A stretch of DNA of 64,000 nt from the NCBI RefSeq assembly GCF_029338295.1, contig NZ_CP119791.1, positions 2,170,001 to 2,234,000 of the forward strand, given 5' to 3'. Made by a program: the position numbers and the translations under genes. The notes under the pieces were generated by a model, which searched no databases, was not told the origin of the DNA, and was given only the letters and a program-made list of their open reading frames with translations. Source of the DNA: Haladaptatus sp. QDMS2. Lineage in GTDB: Archaea > Halobacteriota > Halobacteria > Halobacteriales > Halococcaceae. Below, in pieces: positions 2,988 to 16,681 of this stretch (position 1 is its first letter; the number at the start of each line of letters is the position of its first letter).

Positions 2988-3326
2988 TGCGTAGAGACGT
3001 GACTAAAACACCCAGAAAGTACAGTAATTCAACGTTTCTACCCCGATGCTCGCAGGATGAATTCTGTGTCATGCGCGTCGACCAACAGTCTGAGCACATC
3101 GTCTGCCACCCACAATCTGGGCAACCTCGTGTCCGTGTTTGTCGTGACACGCAGTCAGACCCGTATCTCTCGTCGCATTTCCACAAACACTGTCTGAGTA
3201 TACAAAACAAGGGAACAGAGACGGACAGGCGAGGCTGGGCGGTTCAGTAGTGCCGACCACGACAGTATATATCATACACATAACATGTACGGAACGTATT
3301 TATTCTGTTCTGACAGTCAGGAACAA
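2988..3326. other. Intergenic stretch, no supported gene
   Basis: Open frames exist on both strands, some with several cysteines, but none has consistent composition or a start signal I trust. An AT-rich GTATTTATTCTG at 3295-3306 is a fair TATA element for the gene starting at 3327. Confidence 0.4.
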
Positions 3327-3779
3327 ATGACATTCGACGAGCGACTGCGGGAGTTACATCAGCAGGGAGATCATGACCAAGCCCGCACGCTCGCGAAAGC
3401 AGTGCTCAGAAACGAAGCAGTCACTCGTGTCGAAGTGAGCCCCGAACTCGTGCGGGTCGAAACGCCCCACTTTCGAGGCACGCATCGAATTGCAGTCGAC
3501 CAAGTTGGCGTGATGAGCATCCAACACCACGGCACATACCAGTACAAAAGCCAGGAAATCGACCTGTCGTTCGCCACGAAAACGATGAATCAGGCAGCCT
3601 ACGACCAGGCAGTTGCCCACCTCACAGACCAGACCAAGCCCGCACACGACGAGCGCAAACCCAACGCTGAGACCACAGCAAGACCGGACGCTTCCCCGCC
3701 GAATGATGAAAACCGCTCTGTGGACGACCCAGACGACACGAGCCCCAATCCAGTTGCATTTCTCAAACAACTATTCTGA
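3327..3779 (+). CDS. Hypothetical small soluble protein
   Basis: Begins MTFDERLRELHQQGDHDQAR and encodes 150 residues. I chose the ATG at 3327 because the upstream extension is poor in composition and a TATA-like GTATTTATT lies about 30 bp before it. Residues 1-110 look like a compact alpha/beta domain (helix, then strands around VEVSPELVRVETPHF and GVMSIQHHGTYQYKSQEIDL). A polar disordered stretch follows, ending in PVAFLKQLF. No family recognised. Confidence 0.6.
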   Translation: MTFDERLRELHQQGDHDQARTLAKAVLRNEAVTRVEVSPELVRVETPHFRGTHRIAVDQVGVMSIQHHGTYQYKSQEIDLSFATKTMNQAAYDQAVAHLTDQTKPAHDERKPNAETTARPDASPPNDENRSVDDPDDTSPNPVAFLKQLF

Positions 3780-3937
3780 CTGGATTCCGGTACCGCGTAT
3801 CTGTCGTCTCTGAACGGTCACCCCGTCTACGGTGGTGCTGTAACCATCGGGGAAACGGTAGAATTAGGCGTATCGGACTGCGTTGTGTTATCTCCCTGCA
3901 CAATAGTTATATATTTGATATTAACGTCTACTATCGT

Positions 3938-4768
3938 ATGGTATCGAAGAGGCAACGTGTGATTCTCGTTGTCGCGGTTGTTGTGGTTCTGATGCCGTTG
4001 GCTGCCCTCGGTATGTTACTGTTCCCGCCCGACTTCATGTATAGTCACTACTCTTCGTACGCCTACACAACATCGATCAGTACGAACACGACCATTGAGA
4101 ACGTGACCGTGTTCTTGCCATTCCCTGCCGGAACAGACGGTGGGTCAGATCCGGTTTCAGAGCTATGGATCTACGACGACACCGGAACCCAAGTCACAGA
4201 CTGGGAGGCAGCCGTCGTCCAGACTCCCCACGGGCCGATGCTGCGCCTGCACGCAGACCAGTTGGTCGGAGAAGATCGCTACGTGCTCTGGACATACGCC
4301 CCCAATGGCTCAGTGATCGATCGCCAAGAGATTGGCCCAGACGAGATTCCAGCCAATATGACGAATCGGGAACTCGTTCGCGACCCGACCAGGTACTCGA
4401 TTGCCTGGCAGACCACGGTCGAGCACGATATCGAGACACGCTACCCGGTTGGCAATGCGTCGTTCATCGTCCCAGCCAACGACGTGGCAGCCACCTCGTG
4501 CCAGGATCCATGGTCGGAGACGGACACCTGTTTCACGTTCACGAGCGTGATCGGGACGACCTACGAGGCAGATCAGACGGCAACGGTTACCGTCGGGGAG
4601 ATTCGGTTCGAAGGCTGGAATGAGTGGGGGTTCTGGCTAGCAAACAGTTTCAACACGTTCGAGGCGACCACCTCGCCAGCAGTCTTCACCGATGACCAGC
4701 AAGGCTGGGTTTCCGTCGATGGCCAACTCCACGGAGGAATGGGCCGCTATGACGGACCAGCAAGGTAA
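3938..4768 (+). CDS. Membrane-anchored or secreted hypothetical protein
   Basis: 276 residues. An N-terminal hydrophobic helix (ILVVAVVVVLMPLAALGMLL) acts as signal or anchor, followed by an extracellular region rich in Asn, Thr and Trp with several NxT/S sequons (NTTIENVTV, NGS, NMT, NAS). Two Cys (TSCQDP, TDTCFTF) could form a disulfide. The ATG at 3938 follows an AT-rich TATATTTGATATT element, as in leaderless genes. Similar lone surface proteins are common in haloarchaea; ligand and role unknown. Confidence 0.65.
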   Translation: MVSKRQRVILVVAVVVVLMPLAALGMLLFPPDFMYSHYSSYAYTTSISTNTTIENVTVFLPFPAGTDGGSDPVSELWIYDDTGTQVTDWEAAVVQTPHGPMLRLHADQLVGEDRYVLWTYAPNGSVIDRQEIGPDEIPANMTNRELVRDPTRYSIAWQTTVEHDIETRYPVGNASFIVPANDVAATSCQDPWSETDTCFTFTSVIGTTYEADQTATVTVGEIRFEGWNEWGFWLANSFNTFEATTSPAVFTDDQQGWVSVDGQLHGGMGRYDGPAR

Positions 4769-10616: not shown

Positions 10617-10844
10617 CACCGTCTAGCCAGGGGACACAACCGTTTAACACATCGGCCTTCGACCTGCATGTCACCTGAGTGAACAGACGCCGGTGTAAAT
10701 GACAACTGTTGTGGGTATACGCCCGACGTGCCGGAGGTTCCACGGACCGCCCGACGGCACCCGTCTATTCGATTGTTAACATGACGAACCCCCTGGTTTT
10801 TTAGTTCAGTTCGGAGAGAGTGTACTAAACAACAACGTGTCGTG
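10617..10844. promoter_or_regulatory. Divergent promoter region between two Bat-like genes
   Basis: 228 bp between divergent starts. TTTAGT (about 10800) and ACTAAA (about 10824) form an inverted repeat flanking 18 bp just before the rightward start, a possible operator. An AT-rich ATTGTTAACATG near 10775 could hold a TATA element. Shared control of the two paralogues is plausible but unproved. Confidence 0.4.
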
Positions 10845-13800
10845 ATGTTACAAAATTCACATATTCTATACGTCACCGATGCACAAGCGGGGGCCGACGC
10901 TGACGCGGTGCGGACGCACCTCGCCGAGCGACGAGCGGACGCCCACGTAGCGGTCGCCACCGTAGCGGAGGGGAAACACATGATCGAAGCAGGGGCCACG
11001 GACGCAGTCGTGACCGATTTCGACGGGTTCGCCAACCTGTCGTCGGCGTGCGCTGACCTACCTGTCGTCGTGTACGCGAGCGACCCCGTACCCGATGCCG
11101 TCGAAGCGGCGTACGACGCGGGCGTCACGGCCGTCGTCGAACGAACCGAAGCGAGCGGCGCGATTCTCGCCGCAACGCTCCACCAGGCGTTGTCTGCGGA
11201 CGGGGGCGAGGGGTCGCTCGACCCGGCGAACGAATCGCACCTCGACGCCATCGTCGAATCAGCCTCCGATTGCATCGTCACCATCGACGCGAACAGCACC
11301 ATCCAGTTCATCAATTCGGTCGTCGAAACCGTGTTTGGCTACGACCCGGAGGCACTCGTCGGGGAACCGCTGACGAAACTGATGAGCGACTCGCTCGCCG
11401 AACGCCACCTCGGAGCCATCGACCGCTATCTCGACACCGGGGAACGCCACTTCGACTGGGGGTACGTCGAACTGCTCGGCCAGCACCGCGACGGCCACCA
11501 GATTCCCCTCGGCGTCTCGTTCTCCGAGTTCGAGCGCGACGGCGAGCGCTACTTCACGGGCGTACTTCGCGACATCACCGACCGAAAGCGTGCAGAGCGG
11601 CTCAGACGGCGGCGAAAACGCCAGTTCGACGCCGTGTTCAACGACCCATTCACGTTCTTCGCGCTGCTCGACCGCGACGGAACGGTCCGAAACGTGAATC
11701 GACCGGCGCTCGACTTCGCCGACGTGGACGTGGCCGACGTTGCCGGAAAACCGTTCTGGGAGTGCCCGTGGTGGAGCCACTCGCCCGAGTTGCAGTCGGA
11801 ACTCGAAGCCGAACTCGAACGGGTCAAAGCGGGTGAGTACAGCAAGTTCGAAGCCACCCACGTCAGCCCTGCGGGCGAGACCATAACTGTCGATTTCCAG
11901 GCCAGGCCCGTGGTCGACGGCGACGAAGTGACCGGTATCGTCGCGGAAGGCCTCGACATCACCGAGCAAAAGCGGCTTCAGGAGAAGCTGCGCCACCAGC
12001 ACATCCTCAACCAGCGGGTCATCGACACCGCGCCCGTCGGCATCGTCGTCATCGACGAGTCGGGCAACATCGAGCACATCAACGACCGGGCGGTGGACAT
12101 CGCCGGCGTCTCGCGCGACCGATTGGAAGGCGGGGCGAGCGAGTTCAGTTTCACCGACGGCGAAGGAAACCCGATTCCCGAGGCCGACCTCCCGTTCAGA
12201 ACCGTCCTCGAAACGGGAACCACGGTGTACGACGTCGAGCTGGGCGTCATCCGGCCGGACGGCAGTCGAATCTGGCTCTCCCTGAACGGGTCGCGTCTCC
12301 TCGCAAACGACGGCGAAACCGTCCGAGGCATCTTCACCTTCGAAGACATCACCGACACGAAGCGACGAGCCACCCGACTGGAAGCGCTCACCGAAAAGGC
12401 CCAGCAGTTGCCCGAGGCAAAGACGGCGACCGCGGTCTGTGAGACCATCGTGGACGCCGCCGCGGACGTGCTCGACCTGCCCTACTCCTACATCCTTCGC
12501 TACGAGGAAGCCGAGGGCACCCTCGAACCCGCCGCCCAGACCGAGGGCGTCGCAGCCCTCGTCGAGTCACCCATGCTCGGCGACCTCGGCGAGAGTCCCG
12601 TCTGGGAGGTGTTCATCCGCGACGAAGCGACCGTCCTGTCCGGGGAGGACCAGCGACACCCAACAGCGTCTGCGATACAGAGCATCGGCATCTTCCCGCT
12701 CGGGGAGTTCGGCGTGTTCGTGACCTGCTCGCCCGACGCAGACGGTTTGCGAGAGACGGACCTCCTGCTCGCAGACATGCTCTGTGCGAACGCGCGCTCG
12801 TCGCTCGCACGCGCGGCGCGAGAGGGTGACCTCAGACGCCAGCGCGACACGCTCGAACGCAAGAACAAGCACCTGGCGCGGGTAAACCGCATCAATCGAG
12901 CCATCCGCGACATCACGAAGGTGCTCATTCAGGCGGAAACCAAAGAAGAAATCGAGTCGCTCGTCTGCGAGAAGTTGGCCGCCATCGACCCCTTCGCGTT
13001 CGCCTGGGTCGGCCACCAGGACCTCGCGACTGATACGATCACGCCAGTCGCCTCGGCGGGCGACGGTGACGGCTACCTCGACCGCGTCCAGATTGCGACG
13101 GACGGTTCGACCACGGGCGGGTGTCCGGCCGGGCGTGCCCTGCGGTCGAAACAACCCCAGGTGCTGAACAACATCCTGACCGACGTCGACGCCGAACTGT
13201 GGCGCGAAGAGGCGCTGTCTCGGGGGTTCAGGGCGAGCATCGCCGTCCCGCTCGTCTACCGCGACACGGTGTACGGCGTGTTGAACCTGTATTCGAGAAA
13301 GCCACTCGTGTTCGAGCAGATGGAGCTGTCCGTTCTCACGGAACTCGGCCAGTCCATCGGCTACGCGATGAACGCTCTCGAACGAAAGCGGGCGCTCGTG
13401 AGCGAACGGTCGGTCGAACTCGACTTCGTCTGTGGTCCCCTCGACTCGCCCCTCTTCGGGTTCGCGGACGGATCGCTGGGAACGTTCGAACTGGAGAACG
13501 CCGTCAGACGACTCGACGGGAACGTCCACCTGTTTTTCGACGTGCGGGGCATCGACCCGGACGACCTGCGAGCGCACGTGACGGCGTCGCCCGCCGTCGA
13601 ACAGTTCGCGCTCATCGCCGCGGACGACGACGGCTTTCGCTGTGAGTGTACCGTCCGCGACGACACGCTCGTCTCCTCGCTCGCAGACCGTGGGGCGAGT
13701 CTCGACCACCTGTGCGTAACCGCCGACACCGCGACGCTGACCGTACGAATCCCACAGAGCGCAGACGTTCGGGACATCGCCGCCCACCTCGAATCGACCG

Positions 13801-14084
13801 TCGGCGGGGTGGAACTGCGAGCGAAGCGGGAGTTCGACACACCGGTCATGACGACACAGGAGTTCGAAAGCGAAGTACGAAATCGGTTGACACAGCGCCA
13901 GGAAGAGGTCATCAAAACCGCCTACTTCAGCGGTTTTTTCGAGTGGCCACGAGAGAGCAACGGCCAGGACGTCGCGGAGATCCTCGGCGTGACCCAGCCA
14001 ACAATCAACCGACACATTCGAGCAGGCGAACGGGCGCTGTTCGGCCTCCTGTTCTCGGGAGACGACCCGTGGAAGGCGGAGTGA
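10845..14084 (+). CDS. Large Bat-like sensor regulator (3 PAS, 2 GAF, HTH_10)
   Basis: 1079 residues. A receiver-like domain lacking a clear phosphoacceptor context (5-115) is followed by three PAS domains (about 125-250, 255-375, 385-500; each ends with an RDITDRK, LDITEQK or EDITDTK signature), two GAF domains (about 505-650 and 680-835), a bacterio-opsin-activator domain (850-990), and a C-terminal HTH_10 (RLTQRQEEVIKTAYFSGFFE then EILGVTQPTINRHIRAGE). An ATG three bases after a GTG is used. Same architecture as its divergent neighbour but with more sensor modules, so it probably integrates several signals. Confidence 0.85.
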   Translation: MLQNSHILYVTDAQAGADADAVRTHLAERRADAHVAVATVAEGKHMIEAGATDAVVTDFDGFANLSSACADLPVVVYASDPVPDAVEAAYDAGVTAVVERTEASGAILAATLHQALSADGGEGSLDPANESHLDAIVESASDCIVTIDANSTIQFINSVVETVFGYDPEALVGEPLTKLMSDSLAERHLGAIDRYLDTGERHFDWGYVELLGQHRDGHQIPLGVSFSEFERDGERYFTGVLRDITDRKRAERLRRRRKRQFDAVFNDPFTFFALLDRDGTVRNVNRPALDFADVDVADVAGKPFWECPWWSHSPELQSELEAELERVKAGEYSKFEATHVSPAGETITVDFQARPVVDGDEVTGIVAEGLDITEQKRLQEKLRHQHILNQRVIDTAPVGIVVIDESGNIEHINDRAVDIAGVSRDRLEGGASEFSFTDGEGNPIPEADLPFRTVLETGTTVYDVELGVIRPDGSRIWLSLNGSRLLANDGETVRGIFTFEDITDTKRRATRLEALTEKAQQLPEAKTATAVCETIVDAAADVLDLPYSYILRYEEAEGTLEPAAQTEGVAALVESPMLGDLGESPVWEVFIRDEATVLSGEDQRHPTASAIQSIGIFPLGEFGVFVTCSPDADGLRETDLLLADMLCANARSSLARAAREGDLRRQRDTLERKNKHLARVNRINRAIRDITKVLIQAETKEEIESLVCEKLAAIDPFAFAWVGHQDLATDTITPVASAGDGDGYLDRVQIATDGSTTGGCPAGRALRSKQPQVLNNILTDVDAELWREEALSRGFRASIAVPLVYRDTVYGVLNLYSRKPLVFEQMELSVLTELGQSIGYAMNALERKRALVSERSVELDFVCGPLDSPLFGFADGSLGTFELENAVRRLDGNVHLFFDVRGIDPDDLRAHVTASPAVEQFALIAADDDGFRCECTVRDDTLVSSLADRGASLDHLCVTADTATLTVRIPQSADVRDIAAHLESTVGGVELRAKREFDTPVMTTQEFESEVRNRLTQRQEEVIKTAYFSGFFEWPRESNGQDVAEILGVTQPTINRHIRAGERALFGLLFSGDDPWKAE

Positions 14085-14745: not shown

Positions 14746-15297
14746 TCAGTAGTAGCTCCCGCCATCGGTCGTCGTCGTCCCGTTCGTCTGCCGGACTGGC
14801 GTTCCGTCGGGACGGAGAACCCACCAAACGTCGTTTACCCCCTGCCCGTTCGCATCACCGGGGTTCTCGTCGGGGGCAAAGTAGTAGAGTGGCCATCCGG
14901 CGGCGGCGACCTGCGTCGATCCCTCCCCCCGGTCGAACGTGGTGAGGGCCGCGCTGACGGCTGGCGCTTTCGTCGGTGATTCGCTCACGGTAAGCGGCGG
15001 CCACGTCTCTGCACACGACCCGCTGCAAGTGCTTGAGGGGTCACCCTCGGTATCGCTGTCGAACATGTAGAGCGTCATTCCCTCCGGACCGACGAGAATG
15101 TCGCCGAGGTCCGGATGGGAAGCGACCTGCACGGTTTCTTCGGCGGTGCCGTCAGCGGTCGTCGTCGTGTCGGCCATCGTGGTGGGTTCGGCTGTCGTCG
15201 ACTGAGTCGTCGTCTCGCCACCACCTGACCCGCCGACACAGCCGGCGAGCGCGCTCGATGCGGCGACAGTGAGAAACAGGCGTCGTGAGAGTACCAT
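14746..15297 (-). CDS. Secreted lipoprotein of the COG4315 (Lipoprotein_15) type
   Basis: 183 residues. Signal peptide with lipobox (SALAGCVGG), a Thr-rich linker, then two copies of the family repeat: LVGPEGMTLYMFDSDTEG with CSGSCAETWPPL, and VAAAGWPLYYFAPDENPGD ending in VWWVLRPDG. The YxF/YxxD motifs and the CxxxC before the Trp are typical. It would sit on the outer face of the membrane; a redox or cofactor role is suspected for the family but not shown. It is the last gene of a reverse-strand module with a membrane protein and a wHTH regulator, and a phased repeat lies 35-60 bp before its start. Confidence 0.8.
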   Translation of the reverse strand: MVLSRRLFLTVAASSALAGCVGGSGGGETTTQSTTAEPTTMADTTTTADGTAEETVQVASHPDLGDILVGPEGMTLYMFDSDTEGDPSSTCSGSCAETWPPLTVSESPTKAPAVSAALTTFDRGEGSTQVAAAGWPLYYFAPDENPGDANGQGVNDVWWVLRPDGTPVRQTNGTTTTDGGSYY

Positions 15298-15331
15298 GTC
15301 TAGAACGGCGACGATTCGTGCAAAGAACGTT

Positions 15332-15357
15332 GTCCGAATTTCGTCCAAAATTCGTCC
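15332..15357 (-). promoter_or_regulatory. Three 11-bp phased repeats before the lipoprotein gene
   Basis: On the reverse strand three half-sites GGAC(GAA) recur exactly every 11 bp (plus-strand GTCC at 15332, 15343 and 15354). They occupy 35-60 bp upstream of the lipoprotein ATG, where BRE/TATA would lie. Identical spacing to the 15701 site suggests one regulator, most simply the adjacent wHTH protein. Confidence 0.65.
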
Positions 15358-15362
15358 AATCT

Positions 15363-15665
15363 TCACGCCCAGGTGATACGTGCGAGGTAGGCGAGGGCCA
15401 CCAGTTCGAGGCCACACAGCAGCGTCATGCCCACCTGCACGTCGGTTCCCGCGTTGGTGAACCAACCGATGAAATCGGGGTGGACGAGGTAGAAGGAGAG
15501 CCAGAGGAGGTTCTCGACGAAGAGGAAGGCCGCAAACACGAGCAACCCACGGGTGTGGTCTGCGCCGTGACGCCGGAAGTTTCGGAGCCAGACCGAGCCG
15601 AGGACTACCAACAGGAGAATGTTCACGGCGGCGGCGACGCGGGCCGCCTCAAGCCAGATGCTCAT
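15363..15665 (-). CDS. Three-span membrane protein of the wHTH module
   Basis: 100 residues with three hydrophobic segments: VAAAVNILLLVVLGSVWL, GLLVFAAFLFVENLLWLSFYL and VGMTLLCGLELVALAYLA, with a short basic loop (RNFRRHGADH). Small haloarchaeal membrane proteins of this kind often sit beside an ArsR-like wHTH gene. Starts at the ATG at 15665, 55 bp after the regulator ends, and is preceded by a two-copy phased repeat. No catalytic residues seen; it may sense or transport. Confidence 0.7.
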   Translation of the reverse strand: MSIWLEAARVAAAVNILLLVVLGSVWLRNFRRHGADHTRGLLVFAAFLFVENLLWLSFYLVHPDFIGWFTNAGTDVQVGMTLLCGLELVALAYLARITWA

Positions 15666-15700
15666 CGCTTCCTCGTAGGGGTGTCGTAACCATAGGTGCT

Positions 15701-15715
15701 GTCCAAAATTCGTCC
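15701..15715 (-). promoter_or_regulatory. Two 11-bp phased repeats before the membrane-protein gene
   Basis: GTCC at 15701 and 15712 (11 bp apart) within CCAAAATTCGTCCG, the same sequence as in the 15332-15357 site. It lies 36-50 bp before the ATG at 15665 and directly after the wHTH stop codon. Confidence 0.6.
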
Positions 15716-15719
15716 GAAC

Positions 15720-16007
15720 TCATGGGTCCTCCGTGTCCACCACGGCGAGTACCTCCTCTACGACCGTCCAGTTCGATTTGAGCTGGTCGGTAAACAGGTA
15801 GACGGCGGCATAGTCGTCGTCGGTTCGTCTGACGACGTTGTTCTTCAACAATACGTCCAGATGGTGGCGAATCGTCGTGTAGTCGAGGTCGAGGGCCGTC
15901 GCGAGTTGGTTCGCGTTTCGAGGGCGCTCTGCAATCGCTTTGACGATACGCACGCGCGTCGGGCCGCCCCGAGAACTCGCGAGTACGTACCAGAGAACGC
16001 CCTCCAT
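15720..16007 (-). CDS. ArsR-like winged-helix regulator
   Basis: 95 residues. PTRVRIVKAIAERPRNANQL begins an ArsR-type winged helix; the recognition helix is LDLDYTTIRHHLDVLLKNN and the wing is VVRRTDDDYAAVYLF. The C-terminal helix probably dimerises. No metal-binding cysteines are seen, so the signal is unknown. First gene of the reverse-strand module with the membrane protein and lipoprotein, both preceded by matching repeats; it is the best candidate for their regulator. Confidence 0.8.
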   Translation of the reverse strand: MEGVLWYVLASSRGGPTRVRIVKAIAERPRNANQLATALDLDYTTIRHHLDVLLKNNVVRRTDDDYAAVYLFTDQLKSNWTVVEEVLAVVDTEDP

Positions 16008-16027: not shown

Positions 16028-16630
16028 TTACTCCTTAAATCCGCGTGCGAGCATCGACGACCCCGCCCGGACGCGGTCACCCTGCTCGACGGTGAGCATC
16101 TCTTCTATAACGTCTGGCGGCAAGAGCACGTCCGCCCGACTGCCGAAGGAGATGTGCCCGATGCGGTCGCCTTTCTCGACGGTGTCGCCTACCTCCACGT
16201 AGGGGTGGATGCGCCGGGCGAACCAGCCGGCGATGAGGACGACGGTGTAGTCCTCGAACTCGATGTGGAGCTGTTCGTTGTTGTCCGATTCCTTCGAGAA
16301 GGCGAGTTTGTAGCCACCTGGCTTGTGCGTGACCGACTGGACGGTTCCGGCGAGCGGAGCGCGATTGACGTGGACGTCACGGGCGCTCATGTACGTGCCA
16401 ACGCGGACCTGGTCGCCCTCGCGGCGGATGACCGACACCTTGCCGTCGGCGGGGGCGGCCACGCCCGTCTCGACGATGTCGCGCTCTGGGTCGCGGTAGA
16501 ACAGCAGGACGGAACCGGAGAGCAGGAGGCCAAAGAGCGCCCCGATGGGAGAGAAGATGGTGGCCGCGAGGCCCGCGAGGAACGCGACGACGGCGAACTT
16601 GAGTCCGTCGGGGGCGAGTCCAGGAGTCAT
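16028..16630 (-). CDS. asd: Archaetidylserine decarboxylase (Psd family, short form)
   Basis: 200 residues from the ATG at 16630. Two hydrophobic N-terminal segments, then the Psd domain: APADGKVSVI, DVHVNRAPLAG (conserved His), HIEFEDYTVVLIAGWFARRI, and the self-cleavage motif GHISFGSRADVLLP, where the FGSR serine should become the pyruvoyl group. It decarboxylates archaetidylserine to archaetidylethanolamine in the membrane. Length matches the short bacterial and archaeal form. An upstream TTG at 16660 was not used. Ends 20 bp after the wHTH gene start but is transcribed separately or as read-through. Confidence 0.85.
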   Translation of the reverse strand: MTPGLAPDGLKFAVVAFLAGLAATIFSPIGALFGLLLSGSVLLFYRDPERDIVETGVAAPADGKVSVIRREGDQVRVGTYMSARDVHVNRAPLAGTVQSVTHKPGGYKLAFSKESDNNEQLHIEFEDYTVVLIAGWFARRIHPYVEVGDTVEKGDRIGHISFGSRADVLLPPDVIEEMLTVEQGDRVRAGSSMLARGFKE

Positions 16631-16681
16631 ACGAGCGAATTGCGTCGCGGTCGGTATCAAAGCCGTGTTTCGGCCCGGGAA

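Follow-up and report, generated by a model that had tools for sequence, protein, structure and literature searches.

Comparison of sequences across haloarchaea shows a conserved gene pair, encoding a winged-helix protein (wHTH) and a membrane protein (MEM), together with a conserved operator whose units are phased at 11 bp, a set of exported targets, and operator flavours that match the clade of the wHTH. Our best model, to which we assign a probability of roughly 0.6, is that the wHTH activates MEM and genes for exported proteins through these phased units, and that MEM senses a signal and restrains the wHTH. An initial annotation of the locus in Haladaptatus sp. QDMS2 had proposed a signalling module with cooperative binding on one face of the DNA. 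Both of these points, as well as the identity of the wHTH as the actual binder, are still inference in the absence of binding or expression data.

Genes of the locus

The wHTH, MEM and lipoprotein (LIP) genes lie in that order on the minus strand of a 64-kb window, the whole stretch of Haladaptatus sp. QDMS2 DNA that was analysed. The proposed regulator, wHTH (16007-15720, minus strand; 95 aa), matches the HTH_5 profile PF01022 (E = 4e-11) with 43 bits against a cut-off of 22. A fold search with its AlphaFold model (pLDDT 90.7) returns SmtB, CzrA and ArsR among the best PDB matches (E = 2e-4 to 1e-3 for SmtB and CzrA). Profile and fold both place the protein in the ArsR/SmtB winged-helix superfamily, so its initial description as ArsR-like was sound. 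It is a single domain, with no cysteine and no ligand, sensory or receiver domain, and 19 of 20 homologues contain no cysteine either. The recognition helix, DYTTIRHH, is nearly invariant among homologues.

Two haloarchaeal regulators were considered as possible equivalents and rejected. CsmR of Haloferax (hvo_1209) is ruled out by its different motif, TATCA-N4-TGATA, and its different context (PMC13286277). The ArsR-type gene hvo_0246, which was reported from a motility screen (PMC5198076), could not be equated with wHTH because the neighbours differ: its reported neighbour is a phosphodiesterase gene, which is not the gene found upstream of wHTH in the Haloferax locus (L086), as judged by reading only. 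In Haladaptatus sp. QDMS2, the upstream gene encodes a phosphatidylserine decarboxylase (PF02666; window 16028-16660, minus strand) and ends 20 bp short of the start codon of wHTH. Cotranscription of wHTH with this lipid-synthesis gene is possible.

MEM (15665-15363, minus strand; 100 aa) is the proposed sensor or partner. It matches no family in Pfam or NCBIfam, a Pfam scan of 20 homologues gave no convincing match, and its model has no structural relative in the PDB. This model is confident (pLDDT 94.4) and consists of three long helices, which agrees with the three membrane spans that were originally assigned. The first loop is basic and the second is acidic in nearly all homologues, and this charge bias implies, by the positive-inside rule, that the N terminus is outside and the C terminus is inside. 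The invariant residues include N15, W26, H37, N52 and W68, with the histidine falling within the basic cytoplasmic loop.

The third gene, LIP (15297-14746, minus strand; 183 aa), encodes a protein of the Lipoprotein_15 family (PF03640, equivalent to COG4315; E = 6.1e-30). The Pfam profile finds two repeats with a score of 102.9 bits (cut-off 24.4), and a Tat-type SRRLF motif and an LAGC lipobox are evident by direct reading, all in keeping with the COG4315 lipoprotein that had been annotated. LIP scores below the cut-off of the SCO0930 equivalog (118 of 275 bits). A literature search on COG4315 in haloarchaea found nothing useful. Farther along the window, on the plus strand, are a gene for a HalOD1 output-domain protein (PF18545; 14164-14514) with weak likeness to the disk-determining factor DdfA and, directly 5' of it, a long PAS/GAF bacterio-opsin-activator-like gene (10842-14084).

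Phased repeats upstream of MEM and LIP

Both effector genes are preceded by GGAC half-sites that repeat every 11 bp. The MEM promoter contains two units (15715-15698, minus strand) in the sequence GGACGAATTTTGGACAGC, where GGACGAA (15715-15709) and GGACAGC (15704-15698) are separated by TTTT. The LIP promoter contains three (15357-15329, minus strand) in the sequence GGACGAATTTTGGACGAAATTCGGACAAC, where GGACGAA (15357-15351), GGACGAA (15346-15340) and GGACAAC (15335-15329) follow one another at steps of exactly 11 bp with TTTT and ATTC as spacers. The initial annotation had described such half-sites before both genes at the same distance of 35-60 bp, and the units indeed begin 60, 49 and 38 nt from the start codon of LIP and 50 and 39 nt from that of MEM. 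What it had lacked was the fact that the LIP site is a triple and that the element is found again across the class. The two start-proximal units are spaced practically identically at the two promoters.

Each promoter also has a candidate TATA element about 27 bp before its start codon. In the MEM promoter this is a TATA-like box, CTATGGT (15689-15695, minus strand), and relatives read CATATA or GTATA at the homologous position. In the LIP promoter it is a weak TATA-like element, TTCTTTG (15321-15327, minus strand), in a leaderless geometry. An Rfam search for a structured RNA element gave no match at E = 0.1.

The repeats are rare in their surroundings. With at most one mismatch, GGACGAANTTTGGAC has three matches in the 64-kb window, where 0.05 are expected, and none of 100 shuffles reaches three. 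Three GGAC at 11-bp steps occur once (0.05 expected). The 15-mer pattern GGACRAWWTTYGGAC has three exact matches in the whole 3.88-Mb genome, and all of them fall at the wHTH-MEM-LIP locus. This clustering is difficult to square with the suggestion that the phased GGAC pattern is only chance or a resemblance to core-promoter elements, without any regulatory role. Such a resemblance is conceivable, since the haloarchaeal BRE is CGAAA-like (PMC4983044). Coding DNA is also rich in GGA repeats at multiples of three, but the period of 11 is not a multiple of three. The conservation of the pattern, described below, bears further on this suggestion.

Conservation of the gene pair and its operator

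The MEM family occurs in 69 of 99 relatives and in 170 of 252 Halobacteria genomes, and it is essentially absent outside Halobacteria. A MEM gene lies immediately downstream of wHTH on the same strand for 106 of 116 wHTH matches. We learned an operator profile from 79 non-redundant gaps between the two genes, which are usually about 55 bp long, and it reads TATGGACGAATTTGGGAAAGCGTATA. A failure to find the repeats in orthologous loci had been set beforehand as a result that would refute the module. Instead, the two-unit operator is kept in 74 of the 79 gaps at a score above the 99th percentile of shuffles (five gaps are without it), and a phased element also precedes lipoprotein orthologues and other genes for exported proteins. 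The TATA box marks the end of the conserved block, whose persistence in these loci beside a variable leader is another observation that chance or core-promoter resemblance does not explain. The operator is absent from all 79 of the regions that precede wHTH, which excludes autoregulation of the wHTH gene through the motif.

The Haladaptatus sp. QDMS2 genome has two further wHTH-membrane pairs. One of them (L041, C1:885000-892500; 3668-4300, minus strand) belongs to the TGTR group defined below, and its operator, GGCCGAATTTGGGCTAG, sits between the wHTH and membrane genes. The pair is followed by a gene for a Tat-type cupredoxin (PF00127), for which no three-unit operator was found either by eye or with a relaxed pattern. 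In the other (L042, C1:608500-616500; 3779-4357, minus strand), the two genes are only a few base pairs apart and there is no operator between them, which counts against our best model. This pair adjoins genes that look like a sulfite-oxidase-like molybdoprotein and a polysaccharide deacetylase, names that were given by reading the sequences only.

Three-unit operators and exported proteins

The three-unit form of the operator was sought with the pattern GGNNGANNTTYGGN6TTCGGRAAA, using the reversed pattern as a control. It finds 23 sites against no control sites in 99 genomes and 47 against one in 252 genomes. Together with the clustering and conservation noted above, these counts refute chance as the source of the phased pattern, and we see next to no room for a reading in which the repeats are accidental or mere core promoter without a regulatory role.

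A direct-repeat architecture is also apparent in the three-unit profile, where self-similarity peaks at offsets of 11 (0.30) and 22 (0.27) and is no higher than 0.16 at other offsets, and where the best dyad scores 0.19. The search pattern fixes GG at positions 0, 11 and 22, and the similarity of those columns is partly built in; the independent part of the signal is therefore the A at columns 2, 6, 13 and 17. In 0.92 Mb of fetched loci, tandem GGA runs with a period of 11 comprise 61 triples and 11 quadruples, as compared with 2-12 triples and 0-1 quadruples for other periods not divisible by three. Because the motif was among the grounds for selecting the loci, these counts show the period and not the frequency of the runs. 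Two-unit sites have a weak dyad (0.14 vs 0.18 for offset 11). An inverted-repeat reading of the operator, with a dyad of the ArsR type, was considered and has less support than one with direct repeats. Four or five GGA units stand in exact 11-bp register at eight distinct loci, nearly all of them directly before genes for exported proteins, and these runs together with the two similarity peaks support the helical phasing that had been inferred from a single locus.

Two of the longest runs, each with five GGA units in exact register, are found in a Natrialbaceae MAG (L094, ~3028-3080) and in Natrialba (L100, ~4711-4763). Both precede a gene for a Tat-exported protein of about 635 aa, and the Natrialba copy contains five plastocyanin-type domains. 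In a Salinarchaeum MAG (L011/L138), a four-unit operator has a gene start about 137 nt downstream; judged by reading alone, the gene seems to encode a globin-coupled (HemAT-type) transducer.

The downstream genes were collected for 51 non-redundant three-unit sites (two mismatches or fewer) by requiring an ORF of at least 90 aa that starts within 100 nt. Such an ORF is present at 39 sites, at 24 of which the start codon comes exactly 60 nt after the first unit. By simple text rules for Tat, lipobox or Sec-like signals, 34 of the 39 proteins are export-like, and the few others look like chance matches or wrong starts. The targets include Lipoprotein_15 proteins, plastocyanin-type cupredoxins (Copper-bind) with either one or five domains, Tat-type Ferritin_2 proteins, CHRD proteins, and DUF7282 surface proteins with PGF-CTERM. 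A literature search on DUF7282 found nothing. The element recurs class-wide, with three to five units before genes for exported proteins in other genera.

The promoters of these exported genes have weak TATA boxes. Columns 31-36 of the three-unit profile are T-rich, and since the start codon is 60 nt from the first unit, this element falls about 27 nt before the start. The geometry fits leaderless transcripts, which are the majority in Haloferax (PMC4983044). Two successive lipoprotein genes in Halorussus salinisoli (L079, 4675 and 5323) each have their own three-unit operator at the 60-nt distance from the start codon, and the second lipoprotein has no Pfam match. Three loci from one genus (L133, L134 and L165), which are far from any wHTH-membrane pair, have in common a three-unit-like site, GGTCGAATTTTGGACGGAATTCGGAAAG, that is conserved but is not followed by a clear ORF at the 60-nt distance.

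Operator flavour and wHTH clade

The wHTH proteins can be divided by a short N-terminal motif into ASSR-type and TGTR-type groups, and the operators differ accordingly in flavour. In 20 of 22 ASSR loci a T stands before the second unit (TGGA, mostly TGGAC), whereas 43 of 45 TGTR loci have a base other than T there (GGGAA; p = 8e-13 for clade vs flavour). In all six genomes that contain both clades (G000, G091, G049, G087, G041 and G002), every paralogue has the flavour of its own clade. Because the match holds for paralogues within one genome, it cannot be put down to shared species history. Each flavour could, however, have been inherited with its duplicated locus without functional matching.

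The flavour match bears on which protein reads the repeats. An unlinked factor, such as a TFB paralogue or a global regulator, might do so instead of the wHTH, which would then be a mere neighbour of the operator. There are no direct binding data to exclude this, some sites are far from any wHTH-membrane pair, and the last unit is BRE-like. On the other hand, an unlinked reader would not readily account for a flavour that tracks the adjacent wHTH clade even between paralogues of one genome, nor for the near invariance of both the wHTH recognition helix and the operator. The three-unit sites also co-occur with the pair, and most adjoin it. A MEM gene is present in 40 of 43 genomes with the three-unit pattern and in 130 of the 209 other genomes (Fisher p = 2e-5, which is indicative only, as the genomes are related). 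The association is incomplete in both directions: three pattern-bearing genomes have no MEM match, and many MEM genomes lack the three-unit pattern at the stringency used. On balance, we consider an unlinked reader to be quite improbable.

Proposed mechanism

If the wHTH is the reader, then its monomers would bind the units head-to-tail, one helical turn apart and on the same face of the DNA, an arrangement that is inferred without binding data. The ArsR fold usually forms a two-fold symmetric dimer that reads inverted repeats, and direct repeats therefore suit it badly. Bound next to the BRE and TATA box, the wHTH could help TFB and TBP and thereby activate transcription. Activation is the most likely sign of regulation because the units lie upstream of the BRE and TATA box and abut them, and because the TATA boxes of exported genes are weak. 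This assignment rests on position alone, with no expression or mutant data. The unit beside the TATA box coincides in part with the BRE position, and in many exported-gene sites it has the BRE-like sequence GGAAAA; this last unit may consequently be partly core promoter.

The main rival to the activator model is a repressor that covers the BRE. In that case, bound units would block TFB, and signal-driven sequestration of the wHTH by MEM, like that of SdpR by SdpI, would derepress both the partner and the exported genes. Proteins with the ArsR/SmtB fold, which the wHTH matches, are mostly repressors, the overlap of the last unit with the BRE could serve such a block, and the MEM gene is itself a target. 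However, the units, up to five in number, are mostly located 5' of the core promoter and stacked away from it, and weak TATA boxes are better suited to an activator. The wHTH gene also has no operator, unlike that of the autorepressor SdpR. Repression is thus possible but unlikely in our judgment.

In the activator model, MEM would act as a sensor, either of envelope state or of a redox or metal condition outside the cytoplasm, and would hold or release the wHTH. Both the sensing and the sequestration are proposed by analogy with SdpI and SdpR (PMC1626106). The placement of the MEM gene under the operator would close a feedback loop between the two proteins. In Haladaptatus sp. QDMS2, the predicted output is the COG4315 lipoprotein and the membrane partner. 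That the signal is extracytoplasmic redox or metal is a guess from the theme of the targets (copper, ferritin-like proteins and secreted repeats).

More tentatively, and at somewhat less than even odds, the system may represent an undescribed class of archaeal transmembrane signalling, in which a single-domain ArsR-fold wHTH, assembled head-to-tail on two to five units, activates the leaderless promoters of exported proteins of redox or metal type (cupredoxins, ferritin-like, COG4315, CHRD and DUF7282 proteins) as well as that of its own three-span membrane sensor. We found no description of the wHTH-MEM pair or its operator in the open-access literature; novelty is provisional, as subscription literature was outside the search. 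If this reading is correct, haloarchaea would have a one-step pathway from membrane to promoter without a kinase, receiver or sigma factor. We know of few haloarchaeal regulators with a known regulon and of very few with a known route from membrane to promoter. The pair, found in about two-thirds of sampled haloarchaeal genomes, offers a readable operator, clade-specific flavours and coherent exported targets, and it thereby makes envelope-to-promoter signalling in archaea directly testable in the genetically tractable Haloferax. It also provides a functional context for domains of unknown function (DUF7282 and Lipoprotein_15).

Comparison with known systems

The closest parallel in gene organization is the SdpR-SdpI(-SdpC) system of Bacillus subtilis, in which a small ArsR-fold winged-helix protein and a polytopic membrane protein are co-encoded, an exported protein is linked, and SdpR regulates its membrane gene (PMC1626106). 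The haloarchaeal wHTH and membrane genes are similarly paired and linked to an exported protein. The components themselves do not belong to the Sdp families. The wHTH scores only 31.8 bits against the SdpR model NF033789 (cut-off 100 bits), and MEM, with three spans, about 100 aa and no Pfam or NCBIfam match, does not belong to the SdpI family. The operator also lies between the two genes and not before the wHTH gene, so the wHTH, unlike SdpR, does not repress its own gene by way of this site. The exported products are of the secreted-repeat or redox type, in contrast to the SdpC toxin.

The operator has its closest parallel in the pho box of PhoB and the sites of Mycobacterium tuberculosis PhoP. 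These are head-to-tail 11-bp direct repeats, each composed of a 7-bp motif and a 4-bp spacer, on which tandem dimers, trimers and tetramers form (PMC4832192). GGACGAA plus 4 bp in two to five units has this tandem architecture. The wHTH differs from OmpR/PhoB proteins in having neither a receiver domain nor a histidine kinase and in consisting of a single 95-aa winged-helix domain of the ArsR type instead of the OmpR type. With metalloregulators such as SmtB and CzrA it shares the fold and PF01022, but it lacks their cysteines, scores 35 of 55 bits against the ArsR/SmtB metalloregulator model, and is associated with direct instead of inverted repeats. The upstream activating sequence of GvpE in haloarchaea is an activator site directly upstream of the BRE and TATA box (PMC8241225), a precedent for activation from a position like that of the phased units. 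The similarity is one of position; the protein family and motif are different and GvpE has no membrane partner. LIP belongs to the COG4315/SCO0930-type lipoprotein domain family (PF03640) without being an SCO0930 equivalog. Overall, the system works like SdpR-SdpI combined with sites of the PhoB type, and it is a member of neither.
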